In this document: positions 1-23,640 of the stretch, piece after piece
Layout of the letters: each line of letters begins with the position of its first letter
Position numbering within the stretch: the stretch's first letter is position 1
Source of the DNA: Martelella mediterranea
GTDB taxonomy: Bacteria > Pseudomonadota > Alphaproteobacteria > Rhizobiales > Rhizobiaceae
Direction of reading: 5' to 3'
Assembly: GCF_021021415.1 (NCBI RefSeq)
Contig: NZ_JAINWJ010000010.1
Location: 62,001 to 126,000 of the forward strand
Length of the DNA stretch: 64,000 bases
The notes under the pieces: generated by a model
Databases searched by the model: none
What the model was told of the DNA's origin: nothing
What the model saw: only the letters and a program-made list of their open reading frames with translations
Position numbers and translations under genes: made by a program

Positions 1-1177
1 CGTCGCTTTGCGGTCCTGCATTGTAATGGCACATGGCCGCATTGGCGCCCGAGGCCGAAATCGAACGGAAGCTGGCTTCGAGAAAACCCTTCCGCCGCGC
101 GCGAAAGGCCAGAAGCCGATCCTCCGCCTCGATCTCGCGGATCGGATTGCCGTTTGCGGCGCGCCCCGGCGCTTCGCGTTCCAGCCAGGCCAGAAATTCG
201 GTGAGCGCGATCCCGTCCTCGACATGGCAGGCGCGATAGCCGGCAAGTTCAGCGGGCGTCTTGCGCGCCTTGGCCAGCGTCAACGGGTTGTCGGCCGAGA
301 GAACCGTGCCGCCCGCGCCTTCCACCGCAAGCCGCAGGGCCACAGGCGCGAAGGATTGGTCGATCAGCACAGTCCTGCTCGCGGCGGCACTGTGCACGAA
401 AGGAATAAATTCCTCTGCCGGTCTGACGCTGACCTCCTCCAGCTCGAAAGCGGTAAGGTCATTCGGCAGTTTGCGGCTGTCGACGAACCAGACGACCGCG
501 CCATCGGCGTTCAGGACCATGAATGACTGGGGCACCGGGTTCATGGCGATATCGCTGCCGCGCAGATTGAGCAGCCAGGCGATATTGTCCGGCAGCGTCT
601 CCGCCATCATGTCGGCCCCGGCATCGGCAATCTTCCTGCCCAGGCGCGCCGTCTTCGCCGCAACGGTTTCGCCGGCAAGGGTAGGCGACATCGGGCGAAT
701 GCGACCGAGGGGCTTTTCGGGCCGGTCAGTCCAGATCGCGTCGAACGGGTCTTTCGAAATGGGCACCAGTGTGAAGCCGGCCCGTTCCGCCGAGGCTGCA
801 AGCCGGTCGTAAAGCGCGGTGTCGATCAGCATCGGATCGAAGCCGATCCGCCATCCCTTGCTTCCATGGGCTGCAAGCCAGCTGTCGATTGGATCGTTGT
901 GCAGGTGGTGAACCTCGTAAAGCGCAGCGCTGACCTCGTGGCGCACCTGGATTTCATAACGTCCATCGACGAAGATGAGCGCCTTGTCTTCCAGAACGAG
1001 CGCCAGCCCGGCGGAGCCGGTGAAGCCAGTGATGAAGGCCAGCCGGTCGTCGTGCGGGGCGGCGACCTCGCTTTGGTGGGCATCGGCGCGCGGCACGATT
1101 AGCCCGTCCAGCCCTTCGGATTTCAGCAGGGTTCTGAGTGCCGACAGGCGCGCGGCGATATCGGATTTTGAAGCCAT
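1..1177 (-). CDS. Aminopeptidase P (Xaa-Pro aminopeptidase, M24B), 3' part cut by window edge
   Basis: Removes the N-terminal residue from peptides with proline, or hydroxyproline, in position two; the family is cytosolic and uses two metal ions. The visible 392 codons cover the two creatinase-like N-terminal domains (IVPRADAHQSE near the start, ITGFTGSAG, FVDGRYEIQ) and run into SGANAAMCHY, the His-Tyr stretch that opens the catalytic pita-bread domain in the long (about 600 residue) form. The metal ligands lie beyond the edge. The ATG at 1177 follows GGGGAA. It is the last visible gene of the peptide importer operon, 15 bases after the permease, so it probably processes what the importer brings in. 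Confidence 0.9.
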   Translation of the reverse strand, partial: MASKSDIAARLSALRTLLKSEGLDGLIVPRADAHQSEVAAPHDDRLAFITGFTGSAGLALVLEDKALIFVDGRYEIQVRHEVSAALYEVHHLHNDPIDSWLAAHGSKGWRIGFDPMLIDTALYDRLAASAERAGFTLVPISKDPFDAIWTDRPEKPLGRIRPMSPTLAGETVAAKTARLGRKIADAGADMMAETLPDNIAWLLNLRGSDIAMNPVPQSFMVLNADGAVVWFVDSRKLPNDLTAFELEEVSVRPAEEFIPFVHSAAASRTVLIDQSFAPVALRLAVEGAGGTVLSADNPLTLAKARKTPAELAGYRACHVEDGIALTEFLAWLEREAPGRAANGNPIREIEAEDRLLAFRARRKGFLEASFRSISASGANAAMCHYNAGPQSD

Positions 1178-1192
1178 GGAATTCCCCGGCCG

Positions 1193-2152
1193 TCAGGCGC
1201 CGCGCACGCGCGGGTCGAGAACGGCGTAAAGCAGGTCGACAATGATATTGGTGATCACGATGAAGAAACCGCCCATCAGCACAACACCGATGATCACGGG
1301 CCGGTCGAGATTGCGCACCGACTGCACGGCCAGCGCGCCGACGCCCTGCAGCCCGTAGATCTGCTCGATGACGATGACGCCGCCCAGAAGCAGCGCGATA
1401 TCGGCGCCAAGCTGGGTGATCAGCGGCGTCAACGTGGCGCGCAGGCCGTGCTTGTAGACCACCTTCGCTTCCGAAAGCCCTTTGGCGCGAGCGGTGCGGA
1501 TATAATCCTCGCCCAGCACCTCGATCAGCTTTCCGCGGGTCAGACGGGCATAGATCGCGGCCGTGACCAGCGCCAGCGTCGTCCACGGCAGGAACAGGTG
1601 CCATGCCCATGTGACCGGATCGTCGAGAAACGGCTTGTAGCCGCCGGGCGGAAACAGCATGAAACCGGCCTTGCGCGGCAGGAAATAGAAGACATAGAGC
1701 GACAGCATGCCAAGCACGAAGGTCGGGAAGGACAGGCCCAGCAGGATGAAGCCTTGCCCCAGACGGTCGCGGAAGCCGCCGGGAAACCGCGCCGACATGA
1801 TGCCGATGGGAATGCCGAGCGCCAGCCAGAAAATAACGCCGCCGATGACCAGCGAGATGGTGGCGGGCAGGCGGCGCACGATCAGTTCCGTTACCGGCTG
1901 CTGGTTGCGGTAGGAAAAGCCGAGATCGCCGGTTGCCGCCTTGGCGATGAATTTACCGTACTGCAGGTAGATTGGCTGATCGAGCCCGAGATTGGAGCGG
2001 ATCTGCGCAAGCTGGGTTTCCGTCGCCTTGTCGCCGGCGATCATGCGCGCGGGATCTCCGGGTGCGACGAAGAACAGGACAAAGACGAAGACGCTCAGCG
2101 AAAACAGGATGAGCACGGCAAAGCCGATGCGCTGGATCAGATAACGGGTCAT
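1193..2152 (-). CDS. Peptide ABC transporter permease, DppB/OppB type
   Basis: A 319-residue inner-membrane permease of the dipeptide/oligopeptide/nickel family. It begins with the typical MTRYLIQRIG, followed by a first membrane helix and the APGDPAR segment. A long periplasmic loop is followed by about five more helices, and the cytoplasmic coupling (EAA) loop reads RTARAKGLSEAKVVYKHGLR. It ends VLDPRVRGA, as the family does. It overlaps the DppC-type gene by four bases, so translation is coupled. It should pair with that permease and the fused ATPase. Substrate cannot be read from the permease; the flanking X-Pro peptidases suggest proline- or hydroxyproline-containing peptides. Confidence 0.93.
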   Translation of the reverse strand: MTRYLIQRIGFAVLILFSLSVFVFVLFFVAPGDPARMIAGDKATETQLAQIRSNLGLDQPIYLQYGKFIAKAATGDLGFSYRNQQPVTELIVRRLPATISLVIGGVIFWLALGIPIGIMSARFPGGFRDRLGQGFILLGLSFPTFVLGMLSLYVFYFLPRKAGFMLFPPGGYKPFLDDPVTWAWHLFLPWTTLALVTAAIYARLTRGKLIEVLGEDYIRTARAKGLSEAKVVYKHGLRATLTPLITQLGADIALLLGGVIVIEQIYGLQGVGALAVQSVRNLDRPVIIGVVLMGGFFIVITNIIVDLLYAVLDPRVRGA

Positions 2153-3123
2153 GGGCGCGCCTCCTTCTTCAGCCGTTTGAGGAACGACCGGCGCACCGGC
2201 CGCGCTTTCGGATCAAGCGCATCGCGCAACCCGTCGCCGAGAATGTTGAAGGCAAGCGTGGTCAGAAGCAGCGCCAGCCCCGGAAACACCACCAGCCACC
2301 ACGCCACCAGATAGATCGAGTTGGCCGAGGCATCGGCCAGCATGCCGCCCCAGCTCGGCGTTGGCGGCACGATACCGAGACCGAGGAAGGAAAGCGTGGC
2401 CTCGAAGACGATGGCGGTCGGTATCATCATGGTCGTGTAGACGATGATCGGAACGGAAAGATTGGGCAGGATATCGCGCAGCACGATCGAAACCGGCCCG
2501 GCCCCGAGTGAGCGGCTGGCGGCGACGAATTCCCGGCGGCGCAGCGAGGTGACTTCGGCGCGGATCACGCGGCCCATTGTGGTCCAGGAGAAGAACACGA
2601 TCACACCGATGCTGAGCGACAGGCTCGGCCCGAAGACCGAGACGAGGGCCAGCGCGCACAGAAGAAACGGGACGCTCATCACCAGATCCATGATCCGGCT
2701 CAGCACCATATCGACCTTGCCGCCGGCGAAACCGGCAATCGTGCCGATGGTGATGCCGATCAGGGCGGCGGCGAGCGAGGCGACGACGCCGACAATCAGC
2801 GAGATGCGCGCGCCATAGGCAAGGCGCACCAGAACGTCGCGGCCGAGGTGATCGGCCCCAAGCCAGAAGTCATGGTTCGGGCCGACGGGAAGACCCATCG
2901 GGCTCATGCCGATCTGGCGATATTGCTCGATCGCCGAGTGTCCGGTGATGTCGGCCACGAGCGGTGCCGCAAGCGCAAAGGCGATCAGAAGCACGATGAA
3001 GCAGGCGGCGACAAGGCTGGCGCGGTCACGAACAAGCCGCCGGAGCGTCAGTTCCAACGGACCGCGTTGAACCACTGCGTCCTTGTCGTCGTCTTCGATA
3101 TCATGCTGCGTGACGGCGCTCAT
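2149..3123 (-). CDS. Peptide ABC transporter permease, DppC/OppC type
   Basis: A 324-residue partner permease. It has an N-terminal cytosolic stretch with ELTLRRLVRDRAS, a first helix, the diagnostic LGADHLGRDVLVRLAYGARISL, and the coupling loop AASRSLGAGPVSIVLRDILPN. About six membrane helices are expected. The start ATG overlaps the stop of the upstream ATPase gene (ATGA) and the end overlaps the next permease, giving a tightly coupled block. The gene carries out membrane translocation together with the DppB-type subunit. Confidence 0.93.
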   Translation of the reverse strand: MSAVTQHDIEDDDKDAVVQRGPLELTLRRLVRDRASLVAACFIVLLIAFALAAPLVADITGHSAIEQYRQIGMSPMGLPVGPNHDFWLGADHLGRDVLVRLAYGARISLIVGVVASLAAALIGITIGTIAGFAGGKVDMVLSRIMDLVMSVPFLLCALALVSVFGPSLSLSIGVIVFFSWTTMGRVIRAEVTSLRRREFVAASRSLGAGPVSIVLRDILPNLSVPIIVYTTMMIPTAIVFEATLSFLGLGIVPPTPSWGGMLADASANSIYLVAWWLVVFPGLALLLTTLAFNILGDGLRDALDPKARPVRRSFLKRLKKEARP

Positions 3124-4976
3124 GCGGACTCTCCTCCGATGCTGTCGATGAGCTTGCGCCCGGGCAATGCCCCGGCCGCAACCTCATGCATGGAGGCGGC
3201 CATCAGCTCGCGGGTATAGGGATCGCGCGGCGCGGCATAGATGTCTTCGGCCGCACCGAGTTCGACGATGCGCCCCTTGTTCATCACGGCAATCCGGTCG
3301 CAAACATGGCGGACCACGGACAGGTCATGCGAAATGAACAGGTAGGTGAGGCCCATGTCTTGTTGCAGATGGCGCATCAGGTTGAGGATCTGCGCCTGAA
3401 TCGAGACGTCGAGCGCGGAAACCGGTTCATCGAAGATGATGATGGCGGGATGAAGCGCAAGCGCGCGAGCGATGCCGATGCGCTGACGCTGGCCGCCGGA
3501 AAATTCCGAAGGATAGCGGTTGTAGTGTTCCGGGTTGAGGCCGACGCGCTCCATCAGCGCCTGGACGCGGCGCTTGCGTTCCGCGCCGGAACAGACGTTG
3601 TGGATACGGAACGGGTCGCCGATGATCGAACTCACCCGCCGGCGCGGATTGAGCGAGCCGAAGGGGTCCTGAAACACGAGCTGGATGCGTTTGCGCATGG
3701 CGCGCCAGTCGGCATGGGAGAGCTCGTCGAGCCTTTGGCCCTCGACCACGACATCGCCGGAACTGGCGGGGATAAGCCCTGCCAGCACCCGCGCGAAAGT
3801 CGATTTTCCGCAACCGGATTCGCCGACAAGACCAAGGGTCTCGCCCTTGCAGAGCGTCAGGTCGATGCCCTTGAGCACATGAAGCTCTTTCGGCAGGCCG
3901 CGCATGCCGCCGCCGGTTTCAAAGCTCAGATGCACATTGGCGGCCTCGATCATGGCCGTGCGTTCGCCGGGCGGCGCGACGGGTTCGCCGGCTTCGGCAG
4001 GTGCGCGGCTTTGCGCGCGATCCTCGCTCTCCTTCCAGCAGAGCGCTTCCGTGCCATCGTCGAACAACCTCAGCGGTGGCACCCGCGTACAGATATCCAT
4101 GGCGCTGGCGCAACGGGGGCGAAACACGCAACCCTTCGGCGGGGCGAGCAGGCTGGGCGGGCGCCCGGTGATCGGCTCGATCATGGAGCCGGGCGTGTAT
4201 CGCGCCGGCGACGAGTTCAGCAATCCAGCGGTATAGGGGTGCACGGGTGCGGAAAACAGGGTCGCGGACGGACCGAGCTCCATCCGGTTTCCGGCATACA
4301 TCACCATGACCCTGTCGGCGATCGATGACAGCAGCGACAGGTCGTGGGTGATCATGATCACCGTCGTGCCAAGCTCGCGGCGCATCTCGTCCAGCAGGGC
4401 GATGATCTGTGCCTGCACCGTGACATCGAGCGCGGTCGTGGGCTCGTCGGCGATGATCAGCGGCGGGTTGAGGATCAGCGCCATGGCGATCATCACCCGC
4501 TGGCGCATGCCGCCGGAAAACTGATGCGGATAATCGTCGTAACGGTGCTTGGCATCACGGATGCCGACGCGCGACAGCATCTCGATCACCCGTGCTTTGG
4601 CCTCCTTGTGGCTGACCTTTTCATGGGTATGGATCATTTCGGCGATCTGCGCGCCGATCGTGTAATAGGGGTGGAGGCTGGAGAGCGGATCCTGGAAGAT
4701 CATGCCGATGCGCGCGCCCCGCAGAGCGCGCAGCCGCCGCGATGAAAGCGTCAGAAGGTCGTCACTCTCAAATGTCGCCCGTCCGGAAATCGCGGCATTG
4801 GGCAGAAAGCCCATGATCGCCTGCGTCAGCACGCTTTTGCCCGAGCCGGATTCGCCGGCAATGCCAAAGAGCGTGCCCTTTTCGACGCGGAAGGAAACCT
4901 TGTTGACCGCATGAACGATGCCGTCCTCGGTCGGGATGTCGACGGTCAGGTCACGCACGTCGAGAATGGGTGTCAA
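3120..4976 (-). CDS. Fused DppD-DppF ATPase of peptide ABC transporter
   Basis: One 618-residue chain carries both ATPases of the importer. The first half has Walker A GESGSGKSV, signature FSGGMRQRV and Walker B LIIADEPTTALD, then the oligopeptide C-terminal domain with a Cys-rich CVFRPRCASAMDIC segment. The second half has Walker A GESGCGKST, signature FSGGQRQRI and Walker B IIIFDEPVSALD. Such fusions are common in alphaproteobacterial peptide importers. The start is a TTG at 4976, chosen because GGAGG lies just upstream and the reading frame opens directly into the first beta strand. It is the second gene of the operon, separated from the binding-protein gene by a hairpin. Confidence 0.92.
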   Translation of the reverse strand: MTPILDVRDLTVDIPTEDGIVHAVNKVSFRVEKGTLFGIAGESGSGKSVLTQAIMGFLPNAAISGRATFESDDLLTLSSRRLRALRGARIGMIFQDPLSSLHPYYTIGAQIAEMIHTHEKVSHKEAKARVIEMLSRVGIRDAKHRYDDYPHQFSGGMRQRVMIAMALILNPPLIIADEPTTALDVTVQAQIIALLDEMRRELGTTVIMITHDLSLLSSIADRVMVMYAGNRMELGPSATLFSAPVHPYTAGLLNSSPARYTPGSMIEPITGRPPSLLAPPKGCVFRPRCASAMDICTRVPPLRLFDDGTEALCWKESEDRAQSRAPAEAGEPVAPPGERTAMIEAANVHLSFETGGGMRGLPKELHVLKGIDLTLCKGETLGLVGESGCGKSTFARVLAGLIPASSGDVVVEGQRLDELSHADWRAMRKRIQLVFQDPFGSLNPRRRVSSIIGDPFRIHNVCSGAERKRRVQALMERVGLNPEHYNRYPSEFSGGQRQRIGIARALALHPAIIIFDEPVSALDVSIQAQILNLMRHLQQDMGLTYLFISHDLSVVRHVCDRIAVMNKGRIVELGAAEDIYAAPRDPYTRELMAASMHEVAAGALPGRKLIDSIGGESA

Positions 4977-5038
4977 TAAACTGCCTCCAATACGGAACGG
5001 GAACAGGCGGAGAGACCCCGCCTGCCGGTCTGCATAGG

Positions 5039-5059
5039 GCGGCCGCAGCGCGCGGCCGC
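5039..5059 (-). terminator. Intercistronic hairpin after binding-protein gene
   Basis: Inverted repeat GCGGCCGC / GCGGCCGC with a five-base loop, immediately downstream of the peptide-binding-protein stop. No U-tract follows, so it is more likely an mRNA 3'-end stabiliser or attenuator that gives more binding protein than membrane subunits. Confidence 0.5.
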
Positions 5060-5067: not shown

Positions 5068-6810
5068 TCAGCGGTTCAGCCAGACATTGGTCCAGTCGCC
5101 CTGGGCGCCGAGCGCGTAGGGCTGGAAGTTTTCGACCGCTGGCCCGCGATAGAGTATCACGTTTTCTGTGGTGTAGGGCGCCACCGGCGAATCCTGCATC
5201 ACCAGTTCGTCGACCTGGCTCCAGAGCTCGGCCGCCTTTTCGGGCGTGGTCGCATTGATCGCCTGTGTGGCGATCTCGTTGGCCTCGGGGTTGTTGTAGT
5301 CGACATAGTTGTAGGTCTGGTGCGTGCCGTTATAGGTGAACTGCGGCTGGAACACCGAGCGCGCTGCGCCGCCGACCCAGTCCGGCGACCAGCCCACAGG
5401 CGCGATATCCCAGAGACCGGCCTTGGTGTTTTCCTGGTTGGTCATGAATTTCGAATAATAGTCCGACGGCGCGACCGGCGTCAGTTCCAGCTCGATGCCG
5501 GCCTTTTTCAGGCTGGCCTGAATGGTCTGGGCAATGGCCGGCTCGGCGTTCTGGTTGCGGAACGGCATTTTCAGCGTGATGCCATCCGGATAGCCGGCCT
5601 CTGTAAGCAGTTCCTTCGCCTTTTCAGGGTCGCCGGCGGCATTCTCGCTCGGATAGAGGTCGAATTCGTGGAAACCCAGCACGCCGGGGCCGAAAATGCC
5701 GTTTTGCGGCGCGGCCACCATCGGGCCGCCCATCTGCTGGACGATGGCTGCCTTGTCGAGGGCATATTGCACGGCCTGGCGGATGCGCAGGTCGCGCAGC
5801 GCGCCGTCATTATTGTCCGTCAGCGTGTTGAACCAGAGGAAGGACGTGCGACCGACCGACATGGTGGTCAGCTTGTCGTCGCCGGTTGCCGCCAGCATCT
5901 GCAGGATCGCCGGCGGAATGAGGATGTCATAGGTCATGTCGGCATCGCCGGCCTGAAGCTGCTGGATGGCCGCATCGGGCTGGATGCCGAAGGTGATGTC
6001 GATATTGTCGACATAACCGCCGCGCAGCGGATCGGATTCGGCGGTCCATGCGGGGTTGCGCGTCAGCTTGATGGTGCTGTCCGGCACGTAGGTTTCGACG
6101 GTGTAGGGGCCGGAGGCGATGAAGTTATCACGGTATTCCGGTCCGTCCGGCATATAATCCAGCACCTCGACGGGTGCGGGCGCCGCCGTCGGCAGCGAGA
6201 GCATGTAGACGAAATCGCCCGCCGTTTCGGTGAGGTTGATGACGATGGTCTTGTCATCCGGCGTCTCGATACCGGAAATATCGTTGTTTTCGATATAGTC
6301 CTTCATCGCGGCAGCCGTCGGCTCGACCTTGGCAAAACCGTCGCAGAACGTGCGCATGCCTTCGATCAGATCGATGAAATAGGTCAGCCCCGCCGAGCCG
6401 AGAGAGGGGTTGCACATGCGCTTCATGCCGCGCTCGAAATCGGCCGCGACAATCGGACGCGGGCCTTCCGGCGCATCCCAGGCAACGCCGTCGCGCAGGA
6501 TAAACGTGTAGGTCAGTCCGTCATTGGTGGGCTGGGGAACTTCTGTCGCCAGATCGCCCTTCGGCTGAAGGCGGGCATCGTCATCGGTCGAAGCCTCGTA
6601 GCTGATCAACTGGCGGCTGACGGCACGCAGGAAATTGTTGGAGGTGACGAGCGCCGCCGAGGTCGGATCGAAGTGGTCGATATCGGCGGTTCCGACGATC
6701 TTCAGCGTTCCGCCGGTCTGCGGGTCTGCCGCAAGCGCCGCCGTGGCGGTCGAGGCGGCAAGTAGTGAGACGGCGAGTTTCAACAGTTTTCGTTCTGTGA
6801 ATGCAGTCAT
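5068..6810 (-). CDS. Peptide-binding protein, SBP family 5 (DppA/OppA type)
   Basis: A 580-residue periplasmic binding protein that captures the imported peptide. A Sec signal peptide occupies about residues 1-28 (KLLKLAVSLLAASTATAALA followed by ADPQTGG). The mature part starts GGTLKIVGTADIDHFDP and ends in a C-terminal lobe with APVGWSPDWVGGAARS, typical of SBP_bac_5. It is the first gene of the minus-strand importer operon and faces the M24 peptidase across a 177-base intergenic region that holds a TTGTCGACAA palindrome. A GGGAA ribosome site lies before the ATG. The exact ligand is unknown; X-Pro or X-Hyp peptides are inferred from context. Confidence 0.9.
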   Translation of the reverse strand: MTAFTERKLLKLAVSLLAASTATAALAADPQTGGTLKIVGTADIDHFDPTSAALVTSNNFLRAVSRQLISYEASTDDDARLQPKGDLATEVPQPTNDGLTYTFILRDGVAWDAPEGPRPIVAADFERGMKRMCNPSLGSAGLTYFIDLIEGMRTFCDGFAKVEPTAAAMKDYIENNDISGIETPDDKTIVINLTETAGDFVYMLSLPTAAPAPVEVLDYMPDGPEYRDNFIASGPYTVETYVPDSTIKLTRNPAWTAESDPLRGGYVDNIDITFGIQPDAAIQQLQAGDADMTYDILIPPAILQMLAATGDDKLTTMSVGRTSFLWFNTLTDNNDGALRDLRIRQAVQYALDKAAIVQQMGGPMVAAPQNGIFGPGVLGFHEFDLYPSENAAGDPEKAKELLTEAGYPDGITLKMPFRNQNAEPAIAQTIQASLKKAGIELELTPVAPSDYYSKFMTNQENTKAGLWDIAPVGWSPDWVGGAARSVFQPQFTYNGTHQTYNYVDYNNPEANEIATQAINATTPEKAAELWSQVDELVMQDSPVAPYTTENVILYRGPAVENFQPYALGAQGDWTNVWLNR

Positions 6811-6885: not shown

Positions 6886-6918
6886 TTGTCAACGATATTG
6901 TCGACAAACTGACGACAA
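6886..6918. promoter_or_regulatory. Operator-like palindrome TTGTCGACAA with flanking half-sites
   Basis: The perfect palindrome TTGTCGACAA is at 6898-6907, flanked by outer half-sites TTGTC (6886-6890) and GACAA (6914-6918) that are almost symmetric about the same centre. It lies between the divergent peptide-importer and M24-peptidase genes. The TTGT-N2-ACAA form fits FadR-type GntR operators, and the same core recurs at 19521, 22853 and (one mismatch) 23718. Confidence 0.6.
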
Positions 6919-12117: not shown

Positions 12118-12203
12118 TGCGATATCCTTCGCGATGGGAGGTGGAGGAGGATGGGCTGAAGTTAGGCTGGACAGGCCGGACTTTCTATGCCAGTAAATCC
12201 GCT

Positions 12204-13222: not shown

Positions 13223-14323
<1,101 letters not shown>

Positions 14324-14332
14324 GTCCGTCTC

Positions 14333-16279: not shown

Positions 16280-16302
16280 GGAAACTCCTTGGGACATGGT
16301 AT

Positions 16303-17175
16303 TCATTTGACGGCCCCGGCGGTCAGCCCACGCACATAGTAGCGCTGCAGCGCCAGGAACATCACGATGCAGGGGATCATGGTGAGCGAGATACCGGCCT
16401 GGAGCGCGCCCCAGTCGATAATGCCGTAAATGCCGGAGGAGACGTTCACCAGCATGATCGGCAGGGTGAACTTGTTCTGGTCCGACAGGAAGATCAGCGC
16501 GGCCAGGAACTCGTTCCAGGAATTGAGGAAGGCGAACATCACGACCGTGGCCACACCCGGCAGCGCCAATGGCATCAGGATGCGCCGCACCAGCGTCCAT
16601 TGCGACGCGCCGTCGATCCGCGCGGCCTCGACCAGCGCCTTCGGGATGGCGTCGAAGGCATTGCGCATCATGAAGATCGAGAAGGGGAGCTGAAAGGTGG
16701 TGTAGATCAGCACCAGGCCCAGAAGGCTGTTCTGCAGATGCAGGAATTTCAGGATCAGGAACAGCGGCGTCAGGATCGACTGGAACGGGATCATCATCGT
16801 CGCCATGACGAGGACGAAGATCAGCGTCTGGCCGGGGAAGCGGAATTTGGAAAACCCGTAGCCCGCAGGCACCGCGACGGCCACGGTGAAGGCGATGGTG
16901 CCGAGCGCGATCAGCACCGAATTGGTCGCGTAGACATACCAGCCGGCGCCGACATTTTCGAGACGGCGGTAATTCTCCAGCGAAAACGCCTTGGAAAACA
17001 GCGCCACCGGATGGGCAAGCGCCTCGGCCGCCGGTTTGAAGGAATTGGCGAACGACCAGATGATCGGCATCAGGAAGAACACCGCCAGAATGATCATCGC
17101 CAGAAGCATGAGCAGACGGGTGGCAACCGCGCCATAGCCTTCATCGGCTTCCATGAACAGGCTTTTCACGCTCAT
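16303..17175 (-). CDS. Sugar ABC transporter permease (MalG/UgpE type)
   Basis: A 290-residue inner-membrane permease with six helices. The coupling loop reads EAARIDGASQWTLVRRILMPLALPG, the diagnostic EAA-G motif of the CUT1 family, and TNSVLIALGTIAFTVAVAVPAGYGFSKF precedes it. The start overlaps the stop of the partner permease by four bases. It lies just upstream of the GH127 gene, so the imported ligand is probably an arabinoside. Confidence 0.92.
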   Translation of the reverse strand: MSVKSLFMEADEGYGAVATRLLMLLAMIILAVFFLMPIIWSFANSFKPAAEALAHPVALFSKAFSLENYRRLENVGAGWYVYATNSVLIALGTIAFTVAVAVPAGYGFSKFRFPGQTLIFVLVMATMMIPFQSILTPLFLILKFLHLQNSLLGLVLIYTTFQLPFSIFMMRNAFDAIPKALVEAARIDGASQWTLVRRILMPLALPGVATVVMFAFLNSWNEFLAALIFLSDQNKFTLPIMLVNVSSGIYGIIDWGALQAGISLTMIPCIVMFLALQRYYVRGLTAGAVK

Positions 17176-18092
17176 CGTCCGTCCTCCGGCCGCTGGCGCA
17201 TGAAGGAAAGCTGGATCGAGCTGATGGCGACGAGAACGACCAGCAGGGCGAAGGACAGCGCGGAGCCGTAGCCCAGCCGATAGGACGAGAACGACGCGAG
17301 ATAGATGGTGAATACCGCCGAGATTGTGCTGTTGTTCGGCCCGCCCTGGGTGATGATGAAGAACTGATCGAAGGCAAGCATGGACGAGGTCACGTTCAGG
17401 ATCAGCGCCAGCAGAACCGAATTGCGCATCAGCGGCAGGATGATCCGTCGGAAGCGGCTGAAGGGGCTCGCACCATCGATCCGGGCGGCCTCGATCACGT
17501 CATTGGGGATGCTCTGCAGGCCGGTCAGAAGGATGACCATGGTGAAGCCGGCGGTTTTCCAGACCACCATGAGAATGATCACGGCGAGCGCCGGCCAGAA
17601 GCTTTCAAGCGGGCGCGGCGCATGATCGACAAGGCCAAGCCCGGTCAGAAGCCGCGCGAACACGCCGCTATCGGGATTGAGCAGCCAGAGCCACAGCGTG
17701 GAAGCAGCACCAAAGCCGATGACGACCGGCATGAAGAACACCGTGCGGAAGAAGCCGACGCTGCGCAGCGGCCGGTCGACCAGGAGCGCCAGGGGCAGGG
17801 CAACGGCCATGATCGCGGTGGTGACGAGCACCGTATAAAGCAGGGTGAAGCCGAAGGACTGCCAGAGCTGGGTATCGCCGAGAAGTTCGGCGTAATTTTC
17901 AATGCCGATGAACTTGCGGCGGCCGAGCAGCGGCCAGCGGAAGAAGCTCATCCACACCGTCATGACCAGCGGAATGATGAACAGTCCGATGATGAACACC
18001 ATGCTCGGCGCGATGAAGGCGAGGCCCAGCCAGCCATGCGGCTCATCGCTGCCCGCCTGCCGGCGTTTCTGTAACGCGCGCTTGAGAAACAA
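17172..18092 (-). CDS. Sugar ABC transporter permease (MalF/UgpA type)
   Basis: A 306-residue partner permease. It starts with a short cytosolic segment, then WLGLAFIAPSMVFIIGLFIIPLVMTVWMSFFRW (first helix) and the motif EAARIDGASPFSRFRRIILPLMRNSV. Six helices are expected. The gene lies 117 bases after the binding-protein gene, with a GC-rich hairpin between, and is translationally coupled to the MalG-type partner. Confidence 0.92.
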   Translation of the reverse strand: MFLKRALQKRRQAGSDEPHGWLGLAFIAPSMVFIIGLFIIPLVMTVWMSFFRWPLLGRRKFIGIENYAELLGDTQLWQSFGFTLLYTVLVTTAIMAVALPLALLVDRPLRSVGFFRTVFFMPVVIGFGAASTLWLWLLNPDSGVFARLLTGLGLVDHAPRPLESFWPALAVIILMVVWKTAGFTMVILLTGLQSIPNDVIEAARIDGASPFSRFRRIILPLMRNSVLLALILNVTSSMLAFDQFFIITQGGPNNSTISAVFTIYLASFSSYRLGYGSALSFALLVVLVAISSIQLSFMRQRPEDGR

Positions 18093-18178
18093 GACGTCAA
18101 ATCCCTGGGTTCGGTGATGTCTGCGGGTCCGCGCGGCGGCTTTCCCGAGGCTCTGCTATCCCCTGCGGGGGGAGGGAC

Positions 18179-18200
18179 GCGGGCGGCGCGGGCCGCCCGC
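18179..18200 (-). terminator. Intercistronic hairpin after sugar-binding-protein gene
   Basis: Perfect 9-bp stem GCGGGCGGC / GCCGCCCGC with a 4-base loop, ten bases downstream of the binding-protein stop and ahead of the first permease gene. There is no T-tract, so partial termination or 3'-end protection is likely. Confidence 0.55.
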
Positions 18201-18209
18201 AGCCGGGCG

Positions 18210-19454
18210 TCACGGATTGGTGCGGTCGAGGATCTTGGTGAAATCCTCCTGCGCGGTTTCGATCGCGCCATCCACATCATCGCCGAAGACCGCGCTCTGG
18301 ATCAGGTTCAGAAACGGACCGGTGCGGCTGACGAAAAGCTCGTCCGAGGCATAGGTGTAGGGCGTGCGCGCCTTCGACAGGATGTCATAGGCGATGAGGT
18401 TGCGCGGGTCGAAATTGGCATAGGCCTCTTCCGCCAGATCGGTGCGCGAGGGCATGCCGGCTTCCTGTGTGATGAAGACCTGCTGCTCGGGCTCCATGTA
18501 GAACTTCACGAAATCCTCGATCACCGCCTTCTTCTCAGGCGCGATGCCCTTGATCATGGCAAGCGTGTCGCCGCCTGCAAAGCTCGACTGACCGCCCGTC
18601 GGGCCGGGGATCGGAGCGACGGCGAAGTTGACGTCCGGATAGGTGCTGGTCAGCAGGTTGACGATGTAGGAGCCGGTCATCAGCACGCCGACCTTGCCCG
18701 AGGCGAAGGCTTCCACGGCATTGTTGCCGTTGCCGGAGCGCGACGTCGGATGGATCGTGCCGGCCTGCCACATCGTGCGGTAGTCTTCCAGCGTTTCGCG
18801 CATGGCCGGCGTATCGATGGTCGCTTCGCGGCCGTCATCGGTCAGGATATCGGCATCGGCCGCCCAGATATGCGGCAGGAAGTCGTAGATCAGCCAGCTT
18901 CCGGAATTGGCAACGAAATAGAAGCCGTAGATGTCGTCGCCGAGCGCGCTGATCTTCTCGGCCGCCGCGACGATCTCGTCGAGCGATGCGGGGGCCTTCT
19001 CGGGATCGAGGCCGGCCTGCTCGAACAGGTCGGTGTTATAGGCGATGATCGATGCGTCGGGCAGGGCGGGCACGCCGTAGATATTGCCGTCATAGGTGGC
19101 AAGCCGGATATGGGACGGGCTCAGCGCATCGGCATAGGGCAGGCCCTCGACGAAGCCGGTCATGTCTTCCAGCGTATCGTTGGCGGCAAATGTCGGCAGA
19201 TAGATCAGGTCGAGCACCGCGCCTTCGGGCGGCGCACCGCCGGCGATCGCGGCGCCGAGCTTCGGCACCATCTGTTCGGCGATCACCGCAGTGACGTTGA
19301 CGGTGTCGTCGTGGGCGGTGTTGTACTTCTCGGCGAGCGCCTGCAGCACGGCGGCCGACGAGGTGCGAACCCAGAGGTTTACCTCCTCCGCCTGGGCCCA
19401 TGAAGCGGATGCCGCCAGCGTGACTGCAGCAAGCATGAGTTTGGTTTTCAGCAT
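18210..19454 (-). CDS. Sugar-binding protein, SBP family 1 (CUT1)
   Basis: A 414-residue periplasmic binding protein. Signal peptide about 1-22 (MLKTKLMLAAVTLAASASWAQA), mature start EEVNLWVRTSS. The hinge and ligand segments YGVPALPDASIIAYNTDLFEQAGLDPEKAPASLDE and FASGKVGVLMTGSYIV are typical of the MalE/UgpB class. ATG 19454 is preceded by AAGGGGA; an earlier in-frame codon would place a non-signal stretch before the signal peptide. First gene of the operon that ends with GH127 and the ATPase. Its promoter region contains a TTGTCGACAA palindrome and an 18-bp LacI-type palindrome. Confidence 0.9.
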   Translation of the reverse strand: MLKTKLMLAAVTLAASASWAQAEEVNLWVRTSSAAVLQALAEKYNTAHDDTVNVTAVIAEQMVPKLGAAIAGGAPPEGAVLDLIYLPTFAANDTLEDMTGFVEGLPYADALSPSHIRLATYDGNIYGVPALPDASIIAYNTDLFEQAGLDPEKAPASLDEIVAAAEKISALGDDIYGFYFVANSGSWLIYDFLPHIWAADADILTDDGREATIDTPAMRETLEDYRTMWQAGTIHPTSRSGNGNNAVEAFASGKVGVLMTGSYIVNLLTSTYPDVNFAVAPIPGPTGGQSSFAGGDTLAMIKGIAPEKKAVIEDFVKFYMEPEQQVFITQEAGMPSRTDLAEEAYANFDPRNLIAYDILSKARTPYTYASDELFVSRTGPFLNLIQSAVFGDDVDGAIETAQEDFTKILDRTNP

Positions 19455-19520
19455 GTCATTCCCCTTCTCGTTTTCGTCATTCCTCTTGACGTTTGATAAC
19501 GGTATGGGAGAAAAATTTCG

Positions 19521-19530
19521 TTGTCGACAA
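19521..19530. promoter_or_regulatory. TTGTCGACAA palindrome in arabinoside promoter region
   Basis: Perfect 10-bp palindrome identical to those at 6898 and 22853, lying between the divergent sugar-binding-protein and LacI genes (67 bases before one start and 83 before the other). Probable site for the FadR-type GntR regulator encoded at 22918-23640. Confidence 0.6.
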
Positions 19531-19578
19531 TTTGTGTTCATCTGCTTGCAAAAACCTTTTTGCAACATTGTTTTTGTT

Positions 19579-19596
19579 TGATAAAAGCTTTTATCA
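19579..19596. promoter_or_regulatory. 18-bp palindrome, likely LacI-family operator
   Basis: TGATAAAAGCTTTTATCA is a perfect 18-bp inverted repeat 17 bases before the LacI gene start. A half-site-like TTTGATAA recurs at 19492-19499 near the binding-protein gene. The position suits autoregulation and control of the divergent arabinoside operon. Confidence 0.65.
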
Positions 19597-19612
19597 GCAA
19601 ACTGGAACCGTC

Positions 19613-20623
19613 ATGATAAAGCCCATTCAGCACCGCAGATGCACCCTCAGGGATGTCGCCAGGGCGGCCGATGTCAGCCTGTCGACGGCGTCGAATGCGC
19701 TGAACGGCGTCGGCCGTGTCAATGCCGAGACCCGGGAGCGGGTGCTGCGGGTGGCAACGGAAATCGGCTTCCGGCCGAACGCGCTCGCCCGCAGCCTTTT
19801 GAGCCGCCGAAGCCTCACCATAGGCATCATCACCGATGATACCTATGGCCGGCTGACCCTGCCGATCAGTTCCGGCGTGTCGGAGGTTCTGGTCGATCAC
19901 GGCGTCTCGGCGTTCCTCTGCGCCACCAGTGGCGACAAGCGGCTCGCCGAGCTCCATCTCCAGGCGCTGCTCGACAAGCAGGTCGACGGCATCATCCTGA
20001 CGGCGACACGCCTCGACGTCGATCCCCCCATCGATCTCACCGCGCTCAACATTCCTGTCGTCTATGCCTTCGCGGCCGGACCGCCGCACAGCACCAGTTT
20101 CGTTCCCGACGACGCCCACGGCGCGATGCTGGCAATCGCCTGTCTCGAGGAGGCCGGGTGCCGCGACATTCTCCACATTACCGGGCCTGAAAACTGGCTT
20201 GCGGCCCGACATCGCGCGGCGGCCTATCGTGCCCGATGCCGGCCGGCGTCACCGGTGATGTTCGGAGAATGGTCGGAAGAGTGGGGCCATGAGGCGATCG
20301 AGCAGGTGCTGGCCACGCGGAAAAAGCAGCCCGACGGCATCTTCTGCGGCAGCGATGAGATAGCGCGTGGTGTCCTCGACGGTCTGCGTGATCACGGCAT
20401 CTCGGTGCCGGATGATATCGCCGTGGTCGGTTTCGATAATTGGGAAGTCGTGTCGCGCCAGACCCGCCCGCCGCTGACAACCATCGACATGGAGCTCAAG
20501 GAAATCGGCCACCGCGCCGGGCTGGCGATGTTGCGGCTGACCCGGAACGAGCCTGTCGACAAGGGCATCATCCGGCTTCCGTGTTCGCTGGTTCAGCGCG
20601 AGAGCGTTGCCAAGCCTGCGTAG
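19613..20623 (+). CDS. LacI family transcriptional regulator
   Basis: A 336-residue repressor. The N-terminal helix-turn-helix and hinge read RDVARAADVSLSTASNALNGVGRVNAETRERVLRVATEIGFRPNALARSLL. A periplasmic-binding-protein-like sensor fold follows (TIGIITDDTYGRLTLPISSGVSEVL to RLPCSLVQRES). ATG 19613 places the HTH at the usual distance from the N-terminus. It is divergent from the GH127/sugar-importer operon and very likely its local regulator, with an arabinose-containing ligand as probable inducer (inferred). Confidence 0.9.
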   Translation: MIKPIQHRRCTLRDVARAADVSLSTASNALNGVGRVNAETRERVLRVATEIGFRPNALARSLLSRRSLTIGIITDDTYGRLTLPISSGVSEVLVDHGVSAFLCATSGDKRLAELHLQALLDKQVDGIILTATRLDVDPPIDLTALNIPVVYAFAAGPPHSTSFVPDDAHGAMLAIACLEEAGCRDILHITGPENWLAARHRAAAYRARCRPASPVMFGEWSEEWGHEAIEQVLATRKKQPDGIFCGSDEIARGVLDGLRDHGISVPDDIAVVGFDNWEVVSRQTRPPLTTIDMELKEIGHRAGLAMLRLTRNEPVDKGIIRLPCSLVQRESVAKPA

Positions 20624-20836: not shown

Positions 20837-21769
20837 TCAAAGCACGATGCCGTTGCGGAAGGGGTCGTTGGGGTGGAATACCAGTTCGGCCACCGACATG
20901 ACATAGGCTTGGCCGGTGATTGACGGGATCACGCCGCCCTTCTCTCCCGCCTTGTAGGAGAGCCGATAGGTGGAGCCGATAATGCTCTCCTGCACGATTT
21001 CCTGTCCCTCTCCCAGTTGACCGGCGGCGGCAAGGCAGGCGAGCCGCGCCGAACAGCCGGTTCCGCAGGGGGAGCGGTCATAGGCATCGTCCGGGCAGAG
21101 CACGAAATTGCGGCTGTGCGCCGCCGTATCGCCGGCAGGACCGTAAAAGATGACATGGTCGACCGGCTCGCCGTTCTCGCCGCCGATCTTCTGTGCATTG
21201 AGCGCGGTCCGGGTGGCGACGGCGAGATCGGTAAGCTGGCGGATATTGTCCGGCGTCACCGGGATGGGGCTCGGGTCGACCAGGAAAAACCAGTTGCCGC
21301 CATAGGCGACGTCGCCTGTGAGGACGCCGAACTCCGGCACCTCGATCGTGACGCCCGCTGCGACCCGGCGGCTTTCTATATTGGTGACCGTGACCGTGCT
21401 TTCATCCTGCACATCGACGGTGACGACGCCGGCGGGCGTTTCGATGCGATGCAGACCCGTGCCGATCCGGCCCATATGGTAAAGCGTAACCGCGAGACCG
21501 ATCGTGCCATGGCCGCACATGCCGAGAACCGCGCCGACATCGAAATAGATGACGCCGGTGACGCAGGTCGGATCCACCGGCGGCACCAGCAGCGCGCCGA
21601 CCATGGCGACCTGGCCGCGCGGCTCCAGCACCACGGCGCGGTAGTCGTCGTAGTAGCGCGTCGCAAGCAGCGCCGCGCGTTCGGAAAGCGGGCCCGAACC
21701 GAGATCGGGAAAGCCGTCGAGGATGACCCGCGTCGGCTCGCCCGCAGTGTGGCTATCAATCACATGCAT
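20837..21769 (-). CDS. 4-hydroxyproline 2-epimerase (proline racemase family)
   Basis: A 310-residue cofactor-free epimerase that converts trans-4-hydroxy-L-proline to cis-4-hydroxy-D-proline, the first step of bacterial hydroxyproline catabolism. Both catalytic cysteines are present: Cys85 in GMCGHGTIG and Cys235 in SPCGTGCSARL. Two cysteines mark a racemase/epimerase rather than a trans-3-hydroxyproline dehydratase, which has Ser or Thr replacements. The N-terminus MHVIDSHTAGEPTRVI is typical. It lies 34 bases downstream of the DapA-family deaminase gene, in a pathway-consistent operon. Confidence 0.9.
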   Translation of the reverse strand: MHVIDSHTAGEPTRVILDGFPDLGSGPLSERAALLATRYYDDYRAVVLEPRGQVAMVGALLVPPVDPTCVTGVIYFDVGAVLGMCGHGTIGLAVTLYHMGRIGTGLHRIETPAGVVTVDVQDESTVTVTNIESRRVAAGVTIEVPEFGVLTGDVAYGGNWFFLVDPSPIPVTPDNIRQLTDLAVATRTALNAQKIGGENGEPVDHVIFYGPAGDTAAHSRNFVLCPDDAYDRSPCGTGCSARLACLAAAGQLGEGQEIVQESIIGSTYRLSYKAGEKGGVIPSITGQAYVMSVAELVFHPNDPFRNGIVL

Positions 21770-21803
21770 TCGCTGCTCCCTGGCAAGGCCCGCTCCGCCG
21801 GTT

Positions 21804-22736
21804 TCAGGCCGCCCAGTTGGCGTACCAGGTCTTGAACTGCCGGTACTGTTCCTCGACGAAGGCCTGCTGCGGCGCGGTCAACACATCGGTCTCGTTGAAG
21901 TGCAGGCTATATTCTTCGTCGCCGTTCAGCACCATCAGATATTTGTAGAACAGCACGAGATCGACGCCCTCGTCGAATTTCGACAGCACCATCAGGGCTT
22001 CCTCGAGTTCGCGCGCCTTGACGCGGGCCTCGCTGTCGCCTTCGGCGGCGGTCTTGCAGAGCGAAACGAGATGCAGAACCTCCTTCGGCAGCGCATTGCC
22101 GATGCCGGTGATCGCGCCGGTGGCCCCGCATTTGACGAAGCCGTGGAAGACCTGGGTATCGACGCCGACCATCAGGGTCAGATCGTCATTGCCGGAGGTG
22201 ATGTGCTCGGCTGCGTAGGAGAGGGAGGCCGCACCGCCGAATTCCTTGAAGCCGATCAGGTTGGGGTAATCGGCGCGCAGGGCGAAGAACAGGTCGGCGC
22301 GGGTTTCAAAGCCGTAATGCGGGCTGTTGTAGATCACGGCGGGCAGGCCGTCTGCCGCTTCGAGAATAGCCGAGAAATGCGCCTTCTGCGCAGCAACCGA
22401 ACTGCCGCGCGAGAGAACGCGGGGGATGACCATCAGGCCGGCGGCGCCGACGCGGGCGGCATGGGCCGTGATCGCCACGGCGGACTTGGTGTTGATCGCG
22501 CCGGTTCCCACGATCACCGGAACGCCGGCCTCGACCAGCGCCTCGACGCCCTGCATGCGCTGCTCGTCGGTCAGAAGCGGCCAGTCGCCCATCGATCCGC
22601 AATAGACCACGGCCGACATGCCCGCCTCCACAAGCTCGCGGCCCTTGCGCGCAAGCGCGGCAAAGTCGGGCGTGCAGTCAGCCTTGCAGGGGGTCATCAA
22701 AGCCGGAATACAGCCGGTGAAAATCGTGTCGCTCAT
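21804..22736 (-). CDS. DapA-family aldolase, probable 1-pyrroline-4-hydroxy-2-carboxylate deaminase
   Basis: A 310-residue TIM-barrel lyase of the dihydrodipicolinate synthase family. Schiff-base Lys164 (IGFKEFGG) and Tyr136 (VIYNSPHYG) are in place. In hydroxyproline operons this family deaminates delta1-pyrroline-4-hydroxy-2-carboxylate to 2-oxoglutarate semialdehyde, and its partner here is the epimerase downstream. ATG 22736 follows AAAGGACC with good spacing. A TTGTCGACAA palindrome lies 117 bases upstream. Other DapA-family lyases are possible on sequence alone; the neighbourhood makes the deaminase call strong. Confidence 0.85.
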   Translation of the reverse strand: MSDTIFTGCIPALMTPCKADCTPDFAALARKGRELVEAGMSAVVYCGSMGDWPLLTDEQRMQGVEALVEAGVPVIVGTGAINTKSAVAITAHAARVGAAGLMVIPRVLSRGSSVAAQKAHFSAILEAADGLPAVIYNSPHYGFETRADLFFALRADYPNLIGFKEFGGAASLSYAAEHITSGNDDLTLMVGVDTQVFHGFVKCGATGAITGIGNALPKEVLHLVSLCKTAAEGDSEARVKARELEEALMVLSKFDEGVDLVLFYKYLMVLNGDEEYSLHFNETDVLTAPQQAFVEEQYRQFKTWYANWAA

Positions 22737-22852
22737 CTGGGGTCCTTTCATAGGCACAAGGGATCGATCTCGGCGGGGCAACCTGCTGGCAATCTATGGC
22801 GCTGCGGCCCGGAGCCGGTCAGTTGCAAATTCAGTAGCATCGATGATTCATC

Positions 22853-22862
22853 TTGTCGACAA
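22853..22862. promoter_or_regulatory. TTGTCGACAA palindrome before hydroxyproline genes
   Basis: Perfect 10-bp palindrome in the 181-base gap between the GntR stop and the deaminase start, in a locally AT-rich stretch. It is identical to the sites at 6898 and 19521. Confidence 0.65.
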
Positions 22863-22917
22863 ATAAAATACTTAAAAGTGCGGCGCGCCTGTCCGTCCCT
22901 CGGGAAATTCGCGAACC

Positions 22918-23640
22918 CTACAGCGCGATTGAGGAAACGCTGCGGGAATCCGCGGAGATATAGGCCCGTATCTGGCGCACGATCTGGTCGGCATGCGCCG
23001 TTGCGAGCCGGTCGCATGCGTCTTGGTCACGCGCGATCATGGCGCTGACGATGTGCTCGTGCTCGGCCACATACTGGCGCGGCAGGTCGTCGTCATAGGA
23101 ACGGTAGTAAAGGCGAAGAATCCGGCGTCCGTCATCGAGCAGGCGCCGGAACAGGTCGGTATAGTATTTGTTGCGCCCGGCCTCGGCGATGGCGATGTGA
23201 AAATCGCGGTTGGCCGCGATCATGCCGAGCACGTCGCGAGCCTCGACCGCCTCGGCAAAACGCCTCTGGTGGGCGCGTATCCCGGCCAGATCGGCCTCGT
23301 TGTAATGAATGGCCGCAAGCCGCGCGGTGACGCGGTACATCAGCGTCAGGGCATCAAAAAATGCGCCGAGCTGCACGAAATCGATGTTGGAAACGATCGT
23401 CGTGCGATTGGTCAGCGCCGTGATCAGCCCTTCCGCGGCAAGCCGGACGAGCGCCTCCCGGATGGGCGTGCGCGACATTGCGAAGCGCTCGGAAAGCTCG
23501 GTTTCGTCGATCGGGCTGCCGGGCGCGAGCTTCAACTCGATGATTTCGTTGCGCAGCGTTTCATAGACATGCGCCACGCCGCCGCCGCGCCTGACGTGCT
23601 GGCTCTGGAGCCCGCCGCTCTCCAACGATGTCTTGACCAT
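22918..23640 (-). CDS. GntR family regulator, FadR/FCD subgroup
   Basis: A 240-residue regulator. The winged helix is at about 20-85 (AHVYETLRNEIIELKLAPGSPIDETELSERFAMSRTPIREALVRLAAEGLI). The C-terminal all-helical FCD domain has the metal-site pattern NRDFHIAIAEAGRN and EHEHIVSAM. FadR-type proteins bind short TTGT/ACAA-type palindromes; such palindromes flank this gene on both sides (22853 and 23718). By position it should control the hydroxyproline genes and itself. ATG 23640 follows GGAG. The effector is unknown but likely a hydroxyproline pathway compound. Confidence 0.88.
   Translation of the reverse strand: MVKTSLESGGLQSQHVRRGGGVAHVYETLRNEIIELKLAPGSPIDETELSERFAMSRTPIREALVRLAAEGLITALTNRTTIVSNIDFVQLGAFFDALTLMYRVTARLAAIHYNEADLAGIRAHQRRFAEAVEARDVLGMIAANRDFHIAIAEAGRNKYYTDLFRRLLDDGRRILRLYYRSYDDDLPRQYVAEHEHIVSAMIARDQDACDRLATAHADQIVRQIRAYISADSRSVSSIAL

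Follow-up and report, generated by a model that had tools for sequence, protein, structure and literature searches.

Plant extensins and small peptide hormones carry O-linked arabinose on their hydroxyproline (Hyp) residues (PMC8012813; this and the other papers are cited from excerpts of their text). For the sugar part, the closest described system is that of Bifidobacterium longum for hydroxyproline-rich glycoproteins, in which a binding protein, two permeases and an intracellular GH127 enzyme are clustered and the sugar alone is used, after the action of extracellular GH43 and GH121 enzymes (PMC7263609, PMC8106489). For the amino acid part, the hyp/lhp clusters of Sinorhizobium meliloti, Pseudomonas and Streptomyces comprise HypE, a D-Hyp oxidase, HypD, an alpha-ketoglutarate semialdehyde (KGSA) dehydrogenase and the GntR-type regulator HypR (PMC6608401, PMC5144071), and the HypR regulons of Proteobacteria include hypE/O/D/H, together with prolyl (di)peptidases in Alteromonadales and Aeromonas and secreted collagenases in Alteromonadales (PMC5343134). 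Here we describe a locus at the left end of a 64,000-nucleotide stretch (the window; contig C2:62001-126000) of the 5.41-Mb genome of Martelella mediterranea, the genes of which were checked by domain searches and in which a GH127 gene with its own sugar importer lies among genes for peptide import, proline-specific peptidases and Hyp catabolism.

The order of binding protein, two permeases and GH127 is that of B. longum BLLJ_0208-0211 (PMC7263609), and the binding protein and GH127 are homologous to their B. longum counterparts, with the catalytic residues conserved (PMC7263609, PMC8106489); the GH127 of the window differs in its association with proline-specific peptidases, a peptide importer, Hyp catabolism and a HypR-type operator. 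No GH43 or GH121 front end is named in the annotated stretches, no genome-wide GH121 search having been made. Like the hyp/lhp clusters, the locus has HypE, HypD and candidates for the D-Hyp oxidase, the KGSA dehydrogenase and HypR, but S. meliloti imports free Hyp via HypMNPQ (PMC5343134), whereas the present locus adds a peptide importer and GH127 to the pathway. The HypR set of Streptomyces includes a putative collagenase, and the excerpted hyp/lhp accounts mention no glycosidase (PMC6608401, PMC5144071). In the proteobacterial HypR regulons the upstream source is collagen or proline peptides, with no GH127, glycosidase or arabinose gene mentioned in the excerpt (PMC5343134), whereas the source for the window would be plant Hyp-arabinosides. 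An initial annotation, made from the sequence alone, knew of no description of such a combined pathway; in the open-licence literature, which leaves most subscription papers outside its scope, we likewise found neither a combined locus nor a GH127 in a hydroxyproline regulon. B. longum already offers a precedent for the sugar half and the hyp/lhp clusters one for the Hyp half, and gammaproteobacteria have HypR regulons that extend to prolyl peptidases and collagenases; the joined system would be the new element.

From the gene identities, conserved catalytic residues, subfamily-specific clustering and common palindrome observed here, we read the locus, with a probability of about 0.72, as a co-regulated system for the full use of plant Hyp-O-arabinosides and small Hyp-rich (glyco)peptides; its substrates, the pairing of regulator and site, and the inducer we infer from sequence. 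The route from glycopeptide to L-arabinose plus 2-oxoglutarate, proposed in the initial annotation, gains support because the linkage is specific to one GH127 subfamily (54/79 loci vs 0/50 controls), a HypR-type operator is common to the transcription units, and the sugar-binding protein is nearest to a beta-arabinobiose-binding protein (6LCE). In this route a CUT1 importer would take in beta-L-arabinobiose or short Hyp-arabinosides and a Dpp importer would take in Hyp/Pro-rich peptides. Intracellular GH127 would free L-arabinose (as beta-L-arabinofuranose), and aminopeptidase P and an M24 dipeptidase would open Xaa-Hyp/Pro bonds, to which relatives may add a prolyl-iminopeptidase-like hydrolase. 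HypE would then form cis-4-hydroxy-D-proline, a flavin adenine dinucleotide (FAD) oxidase delta1-pyrroline-4-hydroxy-2-carboxylate (Pyr4H2C), HypD KGSA, and an aldehyde dehydrogenase 2-oxoglutarate. A HypR-type GntR/FCD regulator acting at TTGTCGACAA would join four transcription units, and LacI would give the GH127 operon extra, sugar-specific control.

Gene Order of the Locus

All genes named in the initial annotation were recovered in place by domain searches. It had missed an Ldh_2-family gene (8219-9259), a GntR/FCD gene (22918-23691) and the D-hydroxyproline oxidase step, for which a candidate of the D-amino-acid-oxidase family (DAO) sits just outside the window. From the center of the peptide module, DppA, DppDF, DppC, DppB and aminopeptidase P run leftward, and the M24 gene, the Ldh_2 gene and the aldehyde dehydrogenase gene run divergently rightward. 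To the right of the latter come MFS and AraC genes, then, leftward, the CUT1 importer and GH127 with LacI divergent, and then, again leftward, HypE, HypD and the GntR/FCD gene. The grouping exceeds chance, as judged by case and control counts of GH127 loci (see below).

GH127 and Its Sugar Importer

13223..14323, minus strand: MalK/UgpC-type ATPase of the sugar importer (ABC_tran, OB_MalK, TOBE_2)
14333..16279, minus strand: GH127 beta-L-arabinofuranosidase (catalytic, middle and C-terminal GH127 domains)
16303..17175, minus strand: sugar importer permease 2 (BPD_transp_1)
17172..18092, minus strand: sugar importer permease 1 (BPD_transp_1)
18210..19568, minus strand: sugar-binding protein (6lce, 173 bits; real start probably an internal Met near 19454)
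19493..20623, plus strand: LacI regulator (LacI, Peripla_BP_3; likely start near 19613, the first Met)

The initial annotation had given GH127 an importer of its own, and MalK, two permeases and a binding protein do surround it at 13223-19568. The GH127 gene itself stands, but its open reading frame had been drawn too long: the likely start is the ATG at 16279, which follows AAGGAG, and the product has 648 aa. The catalytic domain PF07944 scores 330 bits against a cut-off of 24.9, and the enzyme is predicted to be intracellular, its initial residues showing no visible signal peptide. It is 91% identical to the GH127s of Martelella radicis and M. mediterranea USBA-857. Among solved structures it comes nearest to 4qjy (608 bits), with HypBA1 at 391 and 5mqo at 277 bits; the first two are named beta-L-arabinofuranosidases. 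E329, E345, C347, C413 and C414 correspond, in alignment columns counted by hand, to HypBA1 E322, E338, C340, C417 and C418, among which we take Glu338, Cys340 and Cys418 to be the zinc ligands. Cys417 is the nucleophile and Glu322 the acid/base of HypBA1 (PMC8106489, figure legend). For the sugar-binding protein the nearest solved chain is 6lce (173 bits, the next 97), the beta-arabinobiose-binding protein of the B. longum hydroxyproline-rich-glycoprotein system (PMC8106489). By family chemistry GH127 would remove beta-L-arabinofuranose, and beta-arabinobiose (beta-Ara2) or Ara-Hyp may be its substrate.

Action on another beta-L-arabinofuranoside (side chains of rhamnogalacturonan II, aceric-acid-type), with a purely regulatory link to the hyp genes, is a very unlikely alternative reading. 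The sole NCBIfam match of the enzyme is indeed an aceric acid hydrolase (NF049879, 369 bits), yet this lies far beneath the cut-off of 950, and identity with that hydrolase was rejected. 5mqo, presumably the aceric acid hydrolase BT1003, scores below both 4qjy and HypBA1, and the binding protein of the importer is nearest to that for beta-arabinobiose; both points count against this reading.

Neighborhoods of the GH127 Subfamily

Case loci were obtained by a contig scan with nine close GH127s, through two short peptide patterns, and comprise the best 80 of 81 loci without L260 (50% identity), i.e., 79 loci at 60-91% identity. The controls were 50 of the 55 GH127 matches below 60% identity, which represent a sister subfamily. 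Within flanks of 10 kb, proline-specific peptidases, the peptide importer or Hyp catabolism genes were linked to GH127 in 54/79 cases and 0/50 controls. An M24 gene, a prolyl-iminopeptidase-like hydrolase, aminopeptidase P or a Dpp orthologue was found in 49/79 cases; HypD, DapA2 (a second DapA family, see below), a proline-racemase-family or a DAO gene in 22/79; and both kinds of gene in 17/79 (0/50 controls each time). The same kind of sugar importer was present in 42/50 controls. In the GH127 tree of 129 rows, a branch with an SH-aLRT of 99 separated 78 rows, which included all 54 linked ones (53 loci plus the window, labelled linked by hand), from the 50 controls. By genus, linked loci were found in Martelella (2/5), Rhizobium (21/29), Devosia (5/6), Kaistia (3/3), Cohaesibacter (2/2) and Brucella (1/2), in the single loci of Marinibacterium, Agrobacterium, Ensifer, Sinorhizobium, Aurantimonas and Aureimonas (1/1 each), and in 14/20 of the remaining loci; none was linked in Xaviernesmea (2 loci), Ciceribacter, Alsobacter, Ferranicluibacter and Antarcticirhabdus (1 locus each).

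Related bacteria, nodulating rhizobia included, keep versions of the gene set together. In Marinibacterium profundimaris (L246), one strand carries GntR, HypD, HypE (78% identical), DAO, the binding protein, two permeases, GH127, MalK and a prolyl-iminopeptidase-like gene. Martelella radicis (L187) has HypE, HypD, LacI, the importer with GH127, the aldehyde dehydrogenase, M24 and the Dpp operon, i.e., the layout of the window without the Ldh_2, MFS and AraC genes; the panel search finds no gene between its GH127 and aldehyde dehydrogenase operons. Devosia sp. FKR38 (L238) combines the Dpp operon, DAO, GntR, aminopeptidase P, GH127 and a proline-racemase-family gene (the CUT1 importer was not found), and Devosia neptuniae, from a root nodule, an alpha/beta hydrolase, the Dpp operon, aminopeptidase P, LacI and the importer with GH127. 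In R. johnstonii 3841 a cluster of GH127 (RL_RS28730), LacI and peptidase genes lies on the symbiotic plasmid pRL10. The cluster reported in PMC3333776 differs from it by its tags. That the rhizobial version on pRL10 edits plant CLE-type Hyp-arabinosylated signal peptides in the rhizosphere or nodule, through arabinose removal and digestion, we regard as highly improbable.

Several observations weigh against the joined system. The case loci share ancestry and their counts are not independent; 25/79 have no linked gene within 10 kb (7/25 with a cut flank), among them those of M. mediterranea USBA-857 and M. alba; and M. mediterranea DSM 17316 has a Dpp-aminopeptidase P operon with no GH127 or hyp gene listed nearby. 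Flanks of at least 9 kb on both sides were available for 8/50 controls vs 69/79 cases, but shorter control flanks are unlikely to be the source of the difference. The initial annotation had proposed a survey of genomes for co-occurrence of GH127 and hydroxyproline epimerase: at E <= 1e-60, among 347 genomes of the order, a GH127 match was present in 56, a HypE match in 27, and both in 4 vs 4.4 expected, so that presence is not associated and genome-wide co-occurrence is ruled out as a general link. Of the three other genomes with both genes, only one has them on the same contig, ~1 Mb from each other. The co-occurrence count misleads, as the proline-racemase-family genes near GH127 are frequently paralogues that miss the E-value limit. 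The features that generalize are the link to peptidases and importer and the operator, not the epimerase itself.

A Common Palindromic Operator

6898..6907, palindromic: operator TTGTCGACAA, between dppA (88 bp) and the M24 gene (81 bp)
19521..19530, palindromic: operator TTGTCGACAA, in the GH127-operon/lacI promoter region
22853..22862, palindromic: operator TTGTCGACAA, upstream of hypD
23718..23727: one-mismatch operator TTGTCGACAT, upstream of the GntR gene

With a fourth exact copy before the GntR-DAO unit, left of the window, the perfect palindrome TTGTCGACAA precedes that unit as well as hypD, dppA/M24 and the GH127 operon. With at most one mismatch it has 8 sites in the window, whereas 100 shuffles gave 1.28 on average and never more than 5. 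Exact copies number 14 genome-wide vs 2 for the reversed control, and 4/14 lie within C2:59204-84862 (25.7 kb) in the promoters of four transcription units (binomial P ~5e-7, calculated post hoc). HypR is a FadR-subfamily regulator of TKGT and ACMA boxes with GT and AC 2 nt apart (PMC4494728), a spacing (TKGT-N2-ACMA) that TTGT-CG-ACAA fits; the Streptomyces HypR consensus, CTNTGC(A/C)ATGTCAC, differs (PMC6608401).

Among the 79 cases, the core TGTCGACA was present upstream of dppA (12/13), M24 (25/27), HypD (4/5), DapA2 (11/12), GntR (15/19) and the prolyl-iminopeptidase-like gene (19/34), compared with 3.1% of random windows in cases and 1.1% in controls, 0/84 upstream of MalK and 1/66 upstream of the permease. 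In the whole interval between lacI and the binding-protein gene, it was found in 54/63 cases vs 0/42 controls. Both linked (34/41) and unlinked (20/22) loci carry it there, the next 8-bp palindrome reaching 14/41 and 5/22. As 20/22 unlinked loci carry the core, the GH127 operon retains the operator even without nearby hyp and peptidase genes.

Other counts speak against a regulon of this extent. The core is rare upstream of DAO (0/7), HypE/proline racemase (1/8) and aminopeptidase P (3/11); in a fixed window upstream of the binding-protein match it appears in 31/65 cases only (1/42 controls), a window that misses sites where that match begins before the true gene (L187, L188); and lacI is divergent in 0/42 controls. 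Since two other GntR/FCD genes of the genome have the exact palindrome nearby, it may not be exclusive to HypR. Of the other ten exact copies, several are intragenic and some stand beside GntR/FCD genes or an M17 peptidase gene; because further copies adjoin other GntR/FCD genes, more than one FCD regulator probably recognizes TTGTCGACAA. One such copy (C18:77371) is at a GntR/FCD gene adjoining a CUT2-type importer, ~6 kb from a GH127 paralogue, and another (C56:15157) separates a GntR/FCD gene from a DapA-family gene.

Many LacI operators are palindromes centered on CG; the copy at the GH127 operon adjoins lacI and could be bound by LacI. Should it be a LacI rather than a HypR site, the GH127 operon would fall outside the hydroxyproline regulon. 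We consider this quite unlikely: the same core stands upstream of dppA, M24, hypD and dapA2/gntR, including loci in which the panel found no lacI (L234, L238, L246, L259), it is found in none of the 42 sister-subfamily lacI-binding-protein regions, and the palindrome fits the published HypR spacing (PMC4494728).

The two importers could also belong to two neighboring modules, one for beta-arabino-oligosaccharides and one for Pro/Hyp peptides, co-induced by decaying extensin, with no single glycopeptide passing through both. The sugar importer has an operon and a LacI to itself, the closest relative of its binding protein is specific to beta-Ara2 alone (PMC8106489), the GH127 operon is unlinked in the 25/79 loci mentioned above, and in Shinella and Arthrobacter the Dpp module occurs with the alpha/beta hydrolase and aminopeptidase P, no GH127 being listed in their (incomplete) gene tables. 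However, in Devosia (L238, L259), M. mediterranea 175.2 (L234) and Cohaesibacter (L245, L247) GH127 accompanies Dpp/aminopeptidase P genes, and the panel detected no CUT1 importer like that of the window, as though sugar and peptide entered joined (importers of other families would escape the panel), and the unlinked GH127 operons retain the operator. Two modules of this kind appear unlikely to us, and we prefer the co-regulated system for Hyp-arabinosides and glycopeptides.

Hydroxyproline Catabolism

20837..21769, minus strand: 4-hydroxyproline epimerase HypE (NF052296, 552 bits vs a cut-off of 450; Cys85, Cys235)
21804..22781, minus strand: HypD, Pyr4H2C deaminase (2hmc, 4mpq and 5czj at 492-504 bits, next 83; likely start near 22736)
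22918..23691, minus strand: GntR/FCD regulator, HypR candidate (GntR and FCD domains; 70% identical to the GntR adjoining HypD in Sinorhizobium sp. B11)
About 0.6-2.7 kb left of the window: FAD-dependent DAO gene, candidate D-Hyp oxidase, and a GntR/FCD gene
8219..9259, plus strand: delta1-piperideine/pyrroline-2-carboxylate-reductase-like (HypS-like) gene (Ldh_2; best solved match 1wtj, also 2cwf and 2cwh, 234 bits)
9282..10805, plus strand: aldehyde dehydrogenase of the Vibrio harveyi type, candidate KGSA dehydrogenase (HypH) (3v4c 478 bits, 1eyy 423 bits, next 79; Cys301)

HypE has both catalytic cysteines expected of it, and the DapA-family deaminase of the initial annotation proved to be of the HypD type, matching solved chains that include 5czj, which we take to be S. 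meliloti HypD. Its Lys179 lies in the motif GFKE, the Lys of which is presumably the Schiff-base residue. HypD lay within ~2.5 kb of HypE in 18/20 HypE stretches fetched (of 27 matches). A role as the DapA-type dehydratase of an L-arabinose pathway was ruled out by the match to HypD chains and the place beside HypE. The second family, DapA2 (e.g., L183 17101-18012, on R. johnstonii 3841 pRL10), is 30% identical to HypD, has only generic DapA chains among its solved matches and stands near GH127 in 12/79 loci; it may be an alternative Pyr4H2C deaminase. In Neorhizobium, a DapA-family gene with the same annotation as DapA2 follows a DAO gene and an Xaa-Pro peptidase gene.

No cis-4-hydroxy-D-proline oxidase gene was found in the hyp region of the window. 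The DAO gene, which ends ~0.6 kb left of the window, is convergent with aminopeptidase P and preceded by its own GntR/FCD gene (C2:59341-60054). Neighborhood and kinship make it a candidate for this step: a Ruegeria relative (49% identical) adjoins HypD, HypE and an Ldh_2 gene 56% identical to that of the window, DAO relatives occur in 8/20 HypE stretches fetched, and in Neorhizobium petrolearium a 58% relative is flanked by a GntR gene and an Xaa-Pro peptidase gene. The Ldh_2 gene has 55-56% relatives inside hyp clusters (L145, L146, Ruegeria), and its enzyme may, in a role known from S. meliloti, convert D-proline-derived delta1-pyrroline-2-carboxylate back to L-proline.

As to the alpha-ketoglutarate semialdehyde dehydrogenase of the initial annotation, an aldehyde dehydrogenase of the V. 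harveyi type is present, and its KGSA specificity is tentatively assigned. A 51% relative lies in a HypE-DAO-HypD cluster (L161), and the score against the KGSA dehydrogenase model NF042993 is 84 bits, with a cut-off of 770. The oxidase and aldehyde dehydrogenase steps are the two least firmly assigned of the route, and further points speak against the gene assignments. The genome holds many further DAO-family genes; HypE or HypD was present in 0/16 stretches around the closest relatives of the aldehyde dehydrogenase in other genomes, so that this gene by itself is no hyp marker and its KGSA role depends on family and position here; and several linked loci have a different proline-racemase-family protein, with Cys/Cys in Kaistia and Ser/Cys in Devosia. 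Proteins of this family near GH127 in which Ser replaces the first catalytic Cys (MSGSN...SPCGTG), in contrast to the Cys/Cys HypE of the window, were seen at L238 12003, L240 13183 and L259 12003.

Peptide Importer and Proline-Specific Peptidases

2..1177 (whole gene C2:61384-63177), minus strand: aminopeptidase P, Xaa-Pro aminopeptidase (Creatinase_N, Creatinase_N_2, Peptidase_M24)
1193..2152, minus strand: DppB peptide permease (BPD_transp_1)
2149..3123, minus strand: DppC peptide permease (BPD_transp_1, OppC_N)
3120..4976, minus strand: DppDF fused ATPase (two ABC_tran stretches, oligo_HPY)
5068..6810, minus strand: DppA peptide-binding protein (SBP_bac_5, 226 bits; nearest solved chain 2wok, 188 bits)
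6988..8121, plus strand: M24 Xaa-Pro dipeptidase-like gene (Peptidase_M24, 175 bits; Creatinase_N)

Pfam domains bear out the peptide importer, aminopeptidase P and M24 peptidase of the initial annotation; aminopeptidase P runs out of the window, the whole gene encoding 598 aa with its C-terminal part beyond the edge. It is 54% identical to the aminopeptidase P sited in the GH127 locus of Devosia neptuniae. DppB has 77-97% orthologues in the case loci that carry the Dpp importer, DppA is 97% identical to that of M. mediterranea DSM 17316, and the M24 product is 61% identical to the Xaa-Pro peptidase encoded by the fifth gene past GH127 on pRL10. The alpha/beta hydrolase of the relatives (R. 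daejeonense copy) is nearest to 8jgm and to Arabidopsis At3g61540 (8jgn), which we take to be a prolyl aminopeptidase, at 354 bits (proline iminopeptidase, 29 bits). On plasmid p232 of the actinobacterium Arthrobacter sp. Rue61a (L338), a Dpp importer (57% DppA) occurs together with an alpha/beta hydrolase, aminopeptidase P, a DapA-family gene and an NADP+ aldehyde dehydrogenase; given this plasmid, the peptide half may have been transferred across phyla.

Other Genes in the Window

10918-13193, between operons: MFS transporter and AraC regulator, without evident role

To the right of the hyp genes, 24469-31868 holds a CUT2-type importer (binding protein, ATPase, permease) and hydantoinase/oxoprolinase A and B genes. 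The latter, which also occur by the Dpp operon in M. mediterranea DSM 17316 and Arthrobacter sp. Rue61a, are perhaps connected to 5-oxoproline or other cyclic imides. Farther right, 34903-46406 comprises an ABC ATPase, three consecutive SBP_bac_11 open reading frames, two of the inositol-monophosphatase family, a metallophosphoesterase and a Na/Pi cotransporter with PhoU domains; it looks like organophosphate uptake with unusual triplicate binding proteins.

Implications

In the excerpted accounts, the bacterial systems described exploit one part only, be it the arabinose (Bifidobacterium, Xanthomonas) or, in hyp/lhp clusters, the hydroxyproline, whereas the Martelella locus and its relatives unite the two halves under one operator. 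The GH127 subfamily thereby gains a specific prediction, namely that its members would act intracellularly on Ara-Hyp or short glycopeptides, and the access of root and nodule bacteria to glycosylated hydroxyproline becomes testable in R. johnstonii 3841.

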